Made by a program: the position numbers and the translations under genes
Part shown: in pieces, positions 2,795 through 16,932 of the stretch
How positions within the stretch are numbered: the stretch's first letter is position 1
Layout: each line of letters begins with the position of its first letter
The notes under the pieces: model-generated
Seen by the model: the letters and a program-made list of their open reading frames with translations, nothing else
What the model was told of the DNA's origin: nothing
The model's database searches: none
Origin: Clostridiaceae bacterium
Lineage (GTDB): Bacteria > Bacillota > Clostridia > Lachnospirales > Lachnospiraceae
Assembly (NCBI GenBank): GCA_902362865.1
Contig: CABIYE010000044.1
Coordinates: 1 to 20,554 of the forward strand
DNA: 20,554 nucleotides
Direction: 5' to 3'

Positions 2795-4138
2795 ATGGAA
2801 AGAGATATGACAACAGGGGCTCCGGGAAAGATTATTTTAAATTTTACAATCCCGATTTTTATAGGGAATATGTTCCAGCAGCTTTACAGCATGGTGGATA
2901 CGATTATTGTGGGTAAATTTGTGGGAAATGAAGCGTTGGCTGCAGTTGGTTCCTGTGGAACCCTGATGTTTCTTATTCTGGGGTTTCTTATTGGTCTTAC
3001 GGCAGGATTTATGGTGATTACTTCGCAGCATTATGGATCCGGAAATATGCGAGCAATGCGGCAGTCGGTTGCTTCTGCGGCGATTCTGTCAGCAGTAATT
3101 TCTGTGTTGATGACCTTGTGCAGTATGTTGATGATGAAGCAGATTCTTCATTTGATGAATACACCGGAGGATATTTATCAGGAAGCATATGGTTATATCA
3201 TGGTTATCTGCGGCGGTATTGCAGCGCAGGTGCTTTATAACTTATTGGCCAGTATATTGCGGGCACTGGGGGACAGTAAGGTTCCGCTTTATTTCCTGAT
3301 ACTGGCGGCGTTTTTAAATATCGTGCTGGATCTGGTATTTATTATTGTATTCCATATGGGGGCTGCAGGGGCTGCCCTTGCAACGGTTATCTCCCAGGGA
3401 GCGTCAGGAATTTTATGCCTTGTGTATATTATAAAGAAGGTTCCGGAACTTCATTTAAGGAAGGAGGACTGGAAGTTTGGGAGAAGCATGGCAATATGGC
3501 AGATGAAGATTGGAATTCCTATGGCTCTGCAATATTCTATTACGGCAATTGGAACTATTATGGTACAGTCTGCGCTGAATATGCTGGGTTCTCTCTCCGT
3601 GGCCGGATTTGCGGCGGCAAATAAGATCGAGCAGTTGGTAACGCAGGCGTATGTAGCGATCGGGACAACGATGGCGACTTACTGTGCGCAGAATACGGGG
3701 GCAGGAAGGATAGACCGTGTACGCCAGGGATTTCGGGCGGCTACGGTTATCGCAAGTATTTATGCTGTAGTGACCGGACTTATGGCTATATTTGGAGGAA
3801 AGTATCTGACAGTACTTTTCGTGTCAGAAAATCTTCCGCAGATTATGGAACTGGTAGATATTTATATGAAATGCATTGGCGCTGTGTTTATTCCGCTGGC
3901 AGTTGTTAATATATACCGTAATGGCATTCAGGGAATGGGCTATGGATTACTTCCGATGATGGCCGGTGTTGCGGAATTAATTGGCAGAGGCGTAGTTGCA
4001 TTGATTGCTGCGTCAAGGAAAAGTTATGTAGGCGCCTGTCTTGCGAATCCCGCGGCATGGCTGTTTGCAGGGGCGCTGCTTTTAATCATGTATTTTTCTA
4101 TTATGAAAAAGCGTGAAAAAAATTCCCTTTTATCATAA
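2795..4138 (+). CDS. MATE family multidrug/cation antiporter
   Basis: This 447-residue integral membrane protein belongs to the multidrug and toxic compound extrusion (MATE) family, which exports organic cations, drugs or metabolites in exchange for Na+ or H+. The opening segment GKIILNFTIPIFIGNMFQQL followed by DTIIVGKFVGNEALAAVG is the family hallmark of helices 1-2. Two homologous halves of six helices each are visible (about 10-195 and 230-440), the second opening with GIPMALQYS. The short basic tail KKREKN is cytoplasmic. Length is typical. The start follows AGGGGG about ten bases upstream. It has its own promoter, so it is not obviously linked to the next operon. The substrate cannot be inferred. 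Confidence 0.92.
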   Translation: MERDMTTGAPGKIILNFTIPIFIGNMFQQLYSMVDTIIVGKFVGNEALAAVGSCGTLMFLILGFLIGLTAGFMVITSQHYGSGNMRAMRQSVASAAILSAVISVLMTLCSMLMMKQILHLMNTPEDIYQEAYGYIMVICGGIAAQVLYNLLASILRALGDSKVPLYFLILAAFLNIVLDLVFIIVFHMGAAGAALATVISQGASGILCLVYIIKKVPELHLRKEDWKFGRSMAIWQMKIGIPMALQYSITAIGTIMVQSALNMLGSLSVAGFAAANKIEQLVTQAYVAIGTTMATYCAQNTGAGRIDRVRQGFRAATVIASIYAVVTGLMAIFGGKYLTVLFVSENLPQIMELVDIYMKCIGAVFIPLAVVNIYRNGIQGMGYGLLPMMAGVAELIGRGVVALIAASRKSYVGACLANPAAWLFAGALLLIMYFSIMKKREKNSLLS

Positions 4139-13577: not shown

Positions 13578-14792
13578 ATGAGAGTAAGAAAATGGATAGC
13601 TGGTTTTTTGGTTATAATCCTTCTGTCGGGAAGCTTTGGGGGTCGTGCCTGTGGGGAGGAAGCAGCGCCGGAGGAACTTAAGAATCTGTACGCCCGGTCA
13701 GCGGTATTGTTAGATGCTGACAGCGGGCGTGTTTTATTTGGCAAGGAGGAGAATGTGCCCCGCCCCATGGCAAGCACCACAAAGATTATGACTTGTATTC
13801 TGGCTCTTGAGAATGCAGATGAGGAGGAAATTGTAGGGATATCGGATGACGCTGCATCCCAGCCGCAGGTAAGGCTGGGGGTAAGGAAGGATGAGAACTA
13901 TTATTTAAAGGATTTGTTGTATTCTTTGATGTTGGAATCTCACAATGACAGCGCAGTGGCGATTGCGGAGCATGTTGCAGGAAGCGTGGAGGCATTTGCA
14001 GAGATGATGAACCGGAAAGCCCTGGATCTTGGATGTAAAGATACGCATTTTGTTACGCCCAACGGCCTGGACGCCCGGGACGAAAAGGGAGTTCATTCTA
14101 CTACAGCAAGAGACTTGGCTGTAATTATGAAATATTGTATCCGTGGTTCAGAAAAGAAAGAACGGTTTCTGGAAATCACAAGAACCAGAAGTTATACCTT
14201 TTCTGACGTCGATGGAAAAAGACAGTTCTCCTGCAGTAATCACAATGCATTTTTAGACATGATGGAGGGAGCGCTGTCGGGAAAGACGGGTTTCACCGGG
14301 GATGCCGGATACTGTTATGTGGGCGCTTTGGAAAGTGAAGGAAGAACTTTCGTTGTAGCTCTGCTGGCATGTGGCTGGCCTAATAATAAGGGGTATAAAT
14401 GGTCGGATACCAGGAAGCTGATGTCTTACGGGATGGAAAATTATCATTATCGGACACTGCGTACCGGCCTTTCTGATACTTACATAGAAGTAAAGGATGG
14501 AATCCCGGAGAATGGCCGGGTGAATGAGAAAGCTTATGTAGAAATATCTGTGCCGGAGGAAGAATGGCAGGCCCTTCTGAAAGACACAGAAGAGATCAAG
14601 GAATATTCTGAATGGAAGGAAAGCCTGGATGCCCCGGTGAAAAAGGGAGAGAAGGTGGGGAGTATTCGTTATTTTCTTGGCGATACGGTGATAAAAAGTG
14701 TGGAAGTAAAGACGTGCAAAAGTGTTTATGAGAGAACATTTAAATGGTGTTTGGCTCAAGTGGGGAAATGTTTCACTCTTTTTGCAGATTAA
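13578..14792 (+). CDS. D-alanyl-D-alanine carboxypeptidase (S11, DacF-like)
   Basis: This low-molecular-mass penicillin-binding protein trims the terminal D-Ala from peptidoglycan stem peptides outside the membrane. The 404-residue precursor has a signal peptide (KWIAGFLVIILLSGSFGG). The active-site motifs are in order: S66-T-T-K69, S121-H-N123 and K236-T-G238. The C-terminal beta domain (about 285-375) and a hydrophobic end (FKWCLAQVGKCFTLF), probably a membrane-associating helix, follow. It lies 52 bases after scpB, a neighbourhood common in Clostridia. The start has no strong ribosome binding site, only a weak GGTGTCGG, so expression may depend on readthrough from scpB. Whether it acts in vegetative growth or sporulation cannot be told. 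Confidence 0.93.
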   Translation: MRVRKWIAGFLVIILLSGSFGGRACGEEAAPEELKNLYARSAVLLDADSGRVLFGKEENVPRPMASTTKIMTCILALENADEEEIVGISDDAASQPQVRLGVRKDENYYLKDLLYSLMLESHNDSAVAIAEHVAGSVEAFAEMMNRKALDLGCKDTHFVTPNGLDARDEKGVHSTTARDLAVIMKYCIRGSEKKERFLEITRTRSYTFSDVDGKRQFSCSNHNAFLDMMEGALSGKTGFTGDAGYCYVGALESEGRTFVVALLACGWPNNKGYKWSDTRKLMSYGMENYHYRTLRTGLSDTYIEVKDGIPENGRVNEKAYVEISVPEEEWQALLKDTEEIKEYSEWKESLDAPVKKGEKVGSIRYFLGDTVIKSVEVKTCKSVYERTFKWCLAQVGKCFTLFAD

Positions 14793-14807
14793 AATAAATC
14801 AATAAAA

Positions 14808-14834
14808 ATGATTAATATCATCACTTTTCTTTTC
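14808..14834 (+). terminator. Weak A/T hairpin with T-rich tail after dacF-like gene
   Basis: ATGAT-TAAT-ATCAT (14808-14821) forms a five-pair A/T-rich stem with a four-base loop, followed by CACTTTTCTTTTC. The stem is too weak to be convincing alone, but it is the only terminator candidate after the carboxypeptidase gene. Confidence 0.3.
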
Positions 14835-14852
14835 CTATACGATATGTTAGGA
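14833..14852. promoter_or_regulatory. Imperfect dyad in the leuA leader, candidate operator
   Basis: TCCTA (14833-14837) and TAGGA (14848-14852) are inverted. AC at 14839-14840 pairs with GT at 14846-14847 if one extra T is allowed. The dyad overlaps a possible extended -10 (TGT then TAGGAT, 14845-14853), which has only a poor TTTTCT -35. It lies about 90 bases before the leuA start. A regulator could bind here, possibly the AraC-type domain of the LeuA fusion itself, but AraC-family sites are more often direct repeats. No T-box or leucine-rich leader peptide is visible. Confidence 0.3.
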
Positions 14853-14943
14853 TAGTAAAGAATAAAAAAAGACAATAAATTTGATAATTATTCATCTCGT
14901 TTGTGGAGTGATTGTCGGATAAAGATAGAAGGAGAGATTATTT

Positions 14944-16932
14944 ATGAAGAATTGTGAAAAGTACGAAAGACAATATTTTATGCCGCCGGAAGTTACTTAT
15001 GACTGGGTGAAAAAGGAATACATCGATAAGCCACCGATTTGGTGCAGCGTTGACTTAAGAGATGGTAATCAGGCGTTAATCGAGCCCATGAGCTTGGAGG
15101 AGAAGCTGGAATTCTTCCAGTTACTTGTGAAGATTGGATTTAAAGAAATCGAAGTAGGATTCCCGGCAGCATCTGAGACAGAGTATAAATTCATGCGTAC
15201 CCTGATTGAGAAGGACATGATTCCCGACGATGTAACCGTTCAGGTGCTGACACAGGCAAGAGAGCATATTATTAAGAAGACCTTTGAAGCAGTGAAAGGA
15301 GCGCCTCATGCGGTGGTTCATTTGTACAATTCCACATCGGTTGCGCAGAGAGAACAGGTTTTTAAGAAGGACAAAGAAGAGATTAAGAAGATAGCAGTAG
15401 AAGGTGCAAAGCTTCTGAAAGAGCTGGCTGATGAGACAGAAGGGAATTTTACTTTCCAATACAGTCCGGAAAGCTTTCCGGGAACAGAAGTGGATTATGC
15501 GGTGGAAGTATGTAACGCAGTTCTGGATGTATGGCAGCCGAATTCAGAGAAGAAGGCGATTATCAATATTCCGACTACCGTTGAAAATGCGATGCCTCAT
15601 GTATTTGCTACCCAGCTGGAATATGTGCATAAACATCTGAAATATAGAGAAAATGTGATTCTCTGCCTGCACCCTCACAACGACAGAGGCTGCGGTGTGG
15701 CGACTGCGGAAGCAGGCATACTGGCAGGAGCAGATCGTATCGAAGGCACCTTATTCGGTAATGGAGAGAGAACCGGTAATGTGGATATCATTACCCTGGG
15801 GATGAATATGTATTCTCACGGAGTGGATCCGGGACTTGACTTTACAAATATGGCAGAAATACGCGAGACCTATGAAAGACTGACCAGGATGCATGTATAT
15901 GAGCGTCAGCCTTATGCCGGAGATTTGGTATTTACGGCGTTTTCCGGTTCCCATCAGGATGCAATCGCCAAGGGCATGGCGTGGCGAGAAGAGAAAAAAT
16001 GCAGCACCTGGACGGTTCCGTATCTGCCAATTGATCCGCAAGATGTGGGAAGAAAGTATGATTCTGACGTAATCCGGATTAATAGTCAGTCAGGAAAAGG
16101 CGGCGTAAATTATATTCTGAAACAGAGCCATGGAATCAACCTTCCACAGAAGATGCGGGAAGAAGTGGGGTATCTTGTAAAGGATGTATCAGACAAGGCT
16201 CATAAGGAACTTACGCCTGAATGGGTATACCAGATATTTTCTGATAATTATATTAATACAAAATCTGTATTCCATATTGATGAGTGCCATTTTAAGCAGG
16301 TGGATGGAATCACGGCAGAGGTTACGATTAATCATGGCGGCGAGAGCAGAGTGATTACGGCGAACGGTAACGGACGTCTGGATGCAGTAAGCAATGCCAT
16401 TAAACAGTATTTCAATATCAGCTATGAACTGACCTTCTATGAAGAACATTCCCTTACAAAAGGTTCTTCTTCTAAGGCGGTAGCTTATGTCGGGATTATC
16501 TGCAAAGGAAAAGTCTGCTGGGGTGTAGGAATTGATGCGGATATTATCAGGGCATCAATTGAAGCGTTGATTGTTGCGGTAAATAAACTGGAAGAGATAG
16601 GCAGTGCGCAAGGATGCAAGGATGAGAGAATGATTGAAATCATGAACTATATCCAGGCGAATTATATCGACATTACGCTGGATGATCTTGCTGAGAAGTT
16701 TTATTTATCCAAACCATATATATCCAAATATATTAAGGAAAAGTCGGGTGTAACTTTCGGAGAACTGGTGAAAAAAATCCGGATGAAGAAAGCGAAAGCC
16801 CTCCTTAAAAGCAGCAGCATGACGGTGGAAAATATTGCGCTTTCTGTGGGATACCAGAATGTAGAACATTTTAACCGGTTATTTAAGAAAACATATAACA
16901 TGACGCCGGTGCAGTTCAGAAACCAGAAATAA
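14944..16932 (+). CDS. leuA: 2-isopropylmalate synthase fused to a C-terminal AraC-type DNA-binding domain
   Basis: The synthase condenses acetyl-CoA with 2-ketoisovalerate, the first committed step of leucine synthesis. Residues 1-557 form a complete enzyme of the long (yeast-like, about 555-residue) LeuA class. The TIM-barrel motif is [16 protein letters not shown], with Arg39 and Asp40. The metal site is LHPHNDRG (His243, His245), followed by [12 protein letters not shown] and GSHQDAI. The leucine-sensing dimer domain (about 440-555) includes [14 protein letters not shown] and [11 protein letters not shown]. Without a gap, residues 558-662 form a full AraC/XylS domain. Its first helix-turn-helix is at 578-598 ([20 protein letters not shown]) and its second at 627-650 ([20 protein letters not shown]). 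The domain ends with MTPVQFR. AAGGAG lies nine bases before the ATG. The likely inference is a leucine-sensing enzyme that also binds DNA. No other leu genes are in the window. Confidence 0.93.

Follow-up and report, generated by a model that had tools for sequence, protein, structure and literature searches.

Ada, a methyltransferase with an AraC-family domain, activates its own gene, and AraC itself acts at araI1/I2, where direct-repeat half-sites about 21 bp apart overlap the −35 element and two boxes lie about 11 bp apart. The DNA-binding domain of PutA is a ribbon-helix-helix, and BirA and NadR belong to enzyme and helix-turn-helix (HTH) families other than those of LeuA and AraC. Trigger enzymes are, to our knowledge, few, and we are aware of no other case where an AraC protein has its effector domain replaced by the allosteric domain of an enzyme committed to a biosynthetic pathway. 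Here we describe LeuA–AraC, a 2-isopropylmalate synthase joined in one reading frame to an AraC-type DNA-binding domain, as a putative new trigger enzyme variant; a matching DNA site at its own promoter suggests that the enzyme may sense leucine and switch its own gene in many gut Lachnospiraceae. The open-licence PMC text that we searched contained no account of such a fusion.

The fusion shares with Ada the combination of an enzyme and an AraC-type domain, but Ada is a suicide DNA repair protein without an allosteric amino-acid feedback domain, and whereas the sensor of AraC is a sugar-binding domain, that of LeuA–AraC would be an enzyme. T-box control likewise acts on leuA expression, but by RNA attenuation, and the window has no T-box match. 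LeuA of M. tuberculosis (1sr9; leucine-bound, 3fig) is of the same enzyme type and has the same domains as the LeuA part; however, it lacks the AraC domain, and alignments to it stop within LeuA_dimer. The E. coli trigger enzymes named in PMC8249747 are BirA, NadR, PepA, PutA and PyrH, with LeuA not among them. BirA and NadR resemble LeuA–AraC as enzymes that also act as transcription factors, and are called multi-target in the same paper on the strength of the authors' unpublished data (PMC8249747). A further parallel is with PutA, a metabolic enzyme that has its own DNA-binding domain, targets its own promoter and is single-target in E. coli (PMC8249747); PutA, however, is a catabolic, substrate-sensing repressor, whereas LeuA–AraC is biosynthetic, carries an AraC domain and has an operator placed as for activation.

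In the window, by which we mean the whole stretch of 20,554 nucleotides that was analysed, LeuA and AraC do lie in one frame as originally noted, with four domains in order along a single uninterrupted open reading frame (ORF):

14944..16932, + strand: leuA–araC fusion gene, 662 aa, ATG start, no internal stop
15037..15867, + strand: HMGL-like catalytic barrel, residues 32-308, Pfam match above gathering
15922..16122, + strand: IPMS_D2 post-catalytic domain, residues 327-393, Pfam match above gathering
16207..16590, + strand: LeuA_dimer allosteric domain, residues 422-549, Pfam match above gathering
16639..16926, + strand: AraC-type double HTH, residues 566-661 (HTH_18 at 582-661 and HTH_AraC at 621-660, Pfam matches above gathering)

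The HTH_18 profile is covered end to end (1-80 of 80) above its gathering score, so that the two-HTH domain is complete, and the ORF passed the cut-off of the PRK03739-type 2-isopropylmalate synthase model of NCBIfam. The named protein records among the 120 matches listed are all called "2-isopropylmalate synthase". The neighbours in the window are not leucine genes: a dacA-like gene and scpAB lie upstream, and an FtsX-type permease and an ABC ATPase downstream. Near the window edge, at 48-2090, Pfam finds a GH43 glycosidase with Big_4 and S-layer homology domains.

Fifteen of the 15 positions of LeuA chosen as active-site residues are invariant across 134 fused and 40 unfused sequences (H337 lies just past the barrel match). 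At the leucine site, alignment to M. tuberculosis LeuA places G475, G477 and Y499, which are invariant in fused sequences; the differences are D in place of A536, and S or A at A558. Over 135 sequences, mean entropy is similar in the HTH (0.98 bits) and in LeuA_dimer (1.04 bits), and residues 550-565, between the two, are variable (2.2 bits); counted rows are distinct proteins of at least 640 aa that match to residue 650, with the partial L071 and L135 and the split L216 excluded. HTH positions S594, K595, E641, H642, F643 and R645 are nearly invariant in these sequences. An AlphaFold model of the fusion has confident HTH helices, seven of them between residues 561 and 660, and its pTM of 0.50 makes the path of allosteric coupling unreadable from it. 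An AraC-type structure was absent from the best 50 matches listed by a fold search, which is thus uninformative on the HTH.

The fusion is widespread. A scan of genome contigs gave 122 loci, of which the best 80 were kept (L001-L080); 79 of these match as far as residue 659 or further, with 67-92% identity, and the remaining one, L071, stops at residue 535, where its contig ends. The record titles of the kept loci include Faecalicatena, Dorea, Sporofaciens, Mordavella, Merdimonas, Claveliimonas and Extibacter, as well as Mediterraneibacter, Roseburia, Butyrivibrio, Agathobacter, Lachnospira and Eisenbergiella. The title of L051, a metagenome bin, is Muribaculaceae, and we take this label to be wrong. 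The concern that the fusion might be found only in this genome did not hold, as protein comparison found it in full in at least 68 of the 299 genomes of one family, that of G002 (the genome of L020, titled Lachnospiraceae bacterium). In the 299-genome set, LeuA of G180 is interrupted by a contig end, and in G081 (L216) the HTH lies in a different frame, with the operator site described below still present. In a class-wide sample, 13 of 391 genomes have the fusion. Because the same fusion recurs in 79 of the 80 kept loci and in these 68 or more genomes, an assembly artefact is ruled out: the fusion at 14944-16932 is confirmed as real, and LeuA–AraC is a trait of a lineage.

In a tree of the LeuA part (154 rows), all 110 fused rows fall within one 126-row clade (SH-aLRT 97), inside which 15 unfused rows are nested. 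The tree requires about 10 changes of fusion state, at least 5 of them on well-supported branches, a pattern that fits one gain and several losses of the HTH. L158, L161 and L170 show no HTH remnant downstream, though they were matched past their stop codons. Four genomes (G042, G128, G389 and G525) carry a second, unfused LeuA, with 50-53% identity, in addition to the fused one.

Fused leuA genes share an operator sequence on their 5' side, TTAAAATAnATCAAnnnAAnTGATTAAA, which in the window is set among the following elements:

14789..14816, + strand: operator O1, TTAAAATAAATCAATAAAAATGATTAAT, with box ATCAA at 14798 and box TGATTA at 14809
14820..14826, + strand: second ATCAC box, 22 bp past the first box, at the position of a −35 element
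14843..14853, + strand: extended −10, TATGTTAGGAT, with the usual spacing from O1; the predicted transcription start lies about 7 bp past 14853
14862..14892, + strand: second operator copy O2, in the same orientation as O1 and 73 bp downstream, in the predicted early transcribed region
14928..14936, + strand: ribosome binding site-like GAAGGAGAG

By a position weight matrix (PWM), the operator site is present upstream of 120 of 133 fused genes and of 1 of 40 unfused genes. As the matrix was built from L001-L080 and the window, its count among training regions (75 of 78, with one further row having too little upstream sequence) is not independent; among held-out fused regions, from loci of the same family, it found 45 of 55 (Fisher 7e-16 against the 1 of 40 unfused, ignoring kinship). 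The 40 unfused loci, from 39 genomes, are among the best-scoring unfused rows of the family listing and not a random draw. The sole unfused leuA with the site is L146, from genome G098, where the HTH is a separate ORF that follows leuA, at position 3593 on the leuA-oriented strand; L146 is either a fusion that has been split naturally or a case of frameshift.

The pattern TGnTAnnAT stands at one exact offset in 102 of the 120 sites, with any other offset seen in at most 4; a looser −10 pattern keeps the exact offset in 73 of 75 training sites but only in 33 of 45 held-out ones. This offset stays fixed while the distance from O1 to the start codon ranges from 60 to 1,041 bp. By eye, no −35 element is seen upstream of the window's leuA, and the −35 position coincides with the second ATCA box, which follows the first by 22 bp. 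Boxes 11 bp apart that repeat at 22 bp fit AraC-type half-sites and would be compatible with putative binding by such a domain. Across the flanks of L001-L080 (1.56 Mb, both strands), the only two sites scoring at least 14 are the displaced operators of L030 and L031, each about 1 kb upstream of leuA; in both loci operator and promoter remain together, separated from leuA by another ORF that by eye resembles an alpha/beta hydrolase. L030, L031 and L132 had been candidates for operator-less exceptions and were rejected as such once the site was located further upstream.

Thirteen of 109 fused rows score below 12; eight of these keep the −10 within 2 bp of its expected offset, and five (L198, L206, L209, L211 and L217) have no such −10 relation. 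One of the five, L206, is also the exception in the protein. Degradation of the recognition helices, which would have spoken against a DNA-binding role, was looked for among 135 homologues, and the DNA-contact helices are nearly invariant in all but this one. Its frame is intact, with the HTH at L206:3425-3760, and its recognition helices read EEEFSAYMK and AEFEQEFQK, against the usual KPYISKYIK and EHFNRLFKK, with acidic replacements in both; its upstream region contains no recognisable operator. The HTH of L206 may have taken on a new role. An independent-pairs test on well-supported branches gave, for HTH and operator, 3 pairs changing in the same direction, 0 in the opposite and 2 without difference (5 pairs, p 0.25). 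With L146 coded as HTH-positive, 129 of 200 pairings gave 3 the same and 1 without difference, and 55 gave 4 of 4. This paired test is consistent with the co-occurrence, but not significant alone.

From the observed fusion, its conservation, the operator, the promoter geometry and the co-occurrence of operator and HTH, we infer that LeuA–AraC is probably an autoregulated trigger enzyme that binds and activates its own promoter and is switched by a signal that is likely leucine. The fused protein would be a working 2-isopropylmalate synthase that also serves its own gene as transcription factor. The AraC domain at its C terminus would bind O1, which adjoins the −35 position of the leuA promoter on the upstream side and covers it, and a weak extended −10 without a −35 would depend on that contact, as at class II AraC-type promoters; activation is proposed because O1 lies over the −35 position, no −35 is visible and the −10 hexamer is poor. 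Leucine is most likely the natural ligand, given that G475, G477 and Y499 of the leucine site are invariant. Bound at LeuA_dimer, directly next to the HTH, it would either end activation by the protein or put the protein into a repressing state. In the clade of the window, such a repressing state might use O2, seven helical turns downstream. O2-like sites occur in 45% of the 88 representatives, compared with 2% of control windows: 40 of the 88 have a second copy scoring above −2, and 29 of these copies lie 73-75 bp downstream of O1 in the same orientation, a placement that points to an added repressing contact. The trigger enzyme reading finds support in the sequences, in that recognition helices are conserved, the HTH tracks the promoter element, enzyme residues are intact and the leucine site is largely conserved.

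In whole-genome searches of 50 fused genomes, every match to the operator pattern with 0-2 mismatches is located at leuA. The first 20 of these gave their own leuA in 19 cases (the 20th, G006, was matched in a separate pattern search) and ten remaining matches, namely two O2 sites of leuA and eight strings with 3 mismatches. The further 30 gave their own leuA in 30 of 30, plus ten 3-mismatch matches elsewhere; these genomes were hand-picked with the site already seen, so that the count informs uniqueness and not frequency. Thirty unfused genomes gave one leuA match, in G098, and four 3-mismatch matches. Non-target matches thus numbered 8, 10 and 4 in the three sets, against 2, 6 and 2 for a reversed-pattern control, and a few of them could be real. 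A palindrome-only pattern was discarded as too narrow (3 of 8 genomes, one match away from leuA).

The wider regulon proposed beyond leuA is supported in one clade only, for leuC and a permease gene, with no operator in 20 leuB regions and one weak match in 22 ilvC-type loci. The best leuC-type locus per genome was scanned in 50 genomes (49 fused, and G098), second leuC-like copies in 4 genomes of the first 20 only, and leuD was not located; leuC is not adjacent to leuB, and ilvD lies beside or near leuB. An O1 site stands about 120 bp 5' of leuC in 3 of the 50 genomes, G224, G695 and G696, which form one clade in the LeuA tree (L196, L066 and L072; support 99). In two of them, a looser pattern also finds an operator-like site upstream of an AA_permease_2 gene, with 0 mismatches in G696 and 1 in G695.

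L332 of G224: leuC operator site, score 28.9
L364 of G695: leuC operator site, score 15.8
L366 of G696: leuC operator site, score 19.7
L389, minus strand: AA_permease_2 locus in a genome of the leuC-operator clade
L391:1343-2870: AA_permease_2 locus in a second genome of that clade

A TATGTTATATT-like −10 follows the leuC sites at offsets of 57, 56 and 56, within 1 bp of the leuA arrangement (hand-counted), and at the permease sites TATAAT lies about 5 bp nearer than the −10 at leuA. In the three genomes the looser pattern also recovered the sites at leuC and, for G695 and G696, those at leuA; it gave eight further 3-mismatch matches, and its reversed control gave four. The leuC and permease sites of this clade tie the operator to leucine and amino-acid supply, and the same protein would there have taken over leuC, plus the permease gene in two of the three genomes. 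Control by the HTH of a broad set of branched-chain amino acid genes across most of these species, to which these added targets could be taken to point, is nevertheless very unlikely, since the other 47 of 50 leuC-type loci score at most 3.4 anywhere in the locus, no site scores 5 or more in 20 leuB regions and 22 ilvC-type loci hold one weak match (7.5).

Other accounts of O1 and of the HTH are harder to reconcile with these patterns. In some members of the window's clade, O1 also resembles an intrinsic terminator for the gene that precedes it: around O1, L006 folds to a strong hairpin (z −2.85), and a T5 run stands behind O1 in 27 of 94 representatives. That this should be its main function is scarcely credible, as the window itself (z −0.50), L050 and L055, the others of the four sequences folded, do not fold better than shuffled sequences, a terminator would leave the ATCAA part and the spacing to the −10 unexplained, and O1 is missing at 39 of 40 unfused leuA genes and present at leuC in one clade. 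O1 might also be owned by a different, unlinked regulator, with the fused HTH serving another end such as stability or oligomerisation; the co-occurrence of HTH and O1 is a correlation, and some fused genes have no clear O1. We regard this as unlikely, because inside the 126-row fusion clade O1 is lost in 14 of 15 unfused members and kept in L146, where the HTH is the adjacent ORF, because it is unrecognisable in L206, whose recognition residues are lost, and because the 11-bp boxes and their 22-bp repeat match AraC-type half-sites.

The protein could also regulate its own gene in response to its substrate or product state (ketoisovalerate, acetyl-CoA) and not to leucine. Trigger enzymes can sense a substrate, as PutA does with proline (PMC8249747), and this possibility carries some weight; it seems doubtful, given that the HTH follows directly on the leucine-binding domain and that the leucine site is largely conserved. 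We return to leucine-switched autoregulation, and lean towards a general form of it in which, across many Lachnospiraceae, the feedback-inhibited LeuA is a leucine-responsive AraC-type activator of its own promoter, so that one leucine-binding domain would set both the activity and the amount of the enzyme, alongside a T-box in some lineages and with leuC and a permease added in one clade. If true, common gut bacteria would have another leucine control besides T-boxes and separate repressors. The fusion also offers a clean test system: most species have a single strong operator in the genome, and nature provides losses, a split form in L146, an HTH mutant in L206 and a clade to which targets have been added.

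The window contains no tRNA and no Rfam family above its gathering score, which agrees with the earlier remark that no T-box is seen upstream of its leuA. The further idea that the fusion replaces the T-box stands for most fused rows, which have none, and fails for the 14 of 109 that have a T-box-like leader, which in 12 of them accompanies the operator; Rfam confirmed a T-box in 9 of 10 fused loci submitted. In L132 the operator lies upstream of a T-box, and L206 has a T-box-like sequence below the Rfam cut-off. A search for T-boxes found none in 20 leuB loci, in 10 of 20 longer leuB regions or in 20 leuC loci. Among the 40 unfused relatives, 32 have a T-box-like leader, and in two loci (L144:2458-2616 and L149:2722-2885) the T-box is separated from the unfused leuA by a Clostridiales-1 RNA (RF01699).
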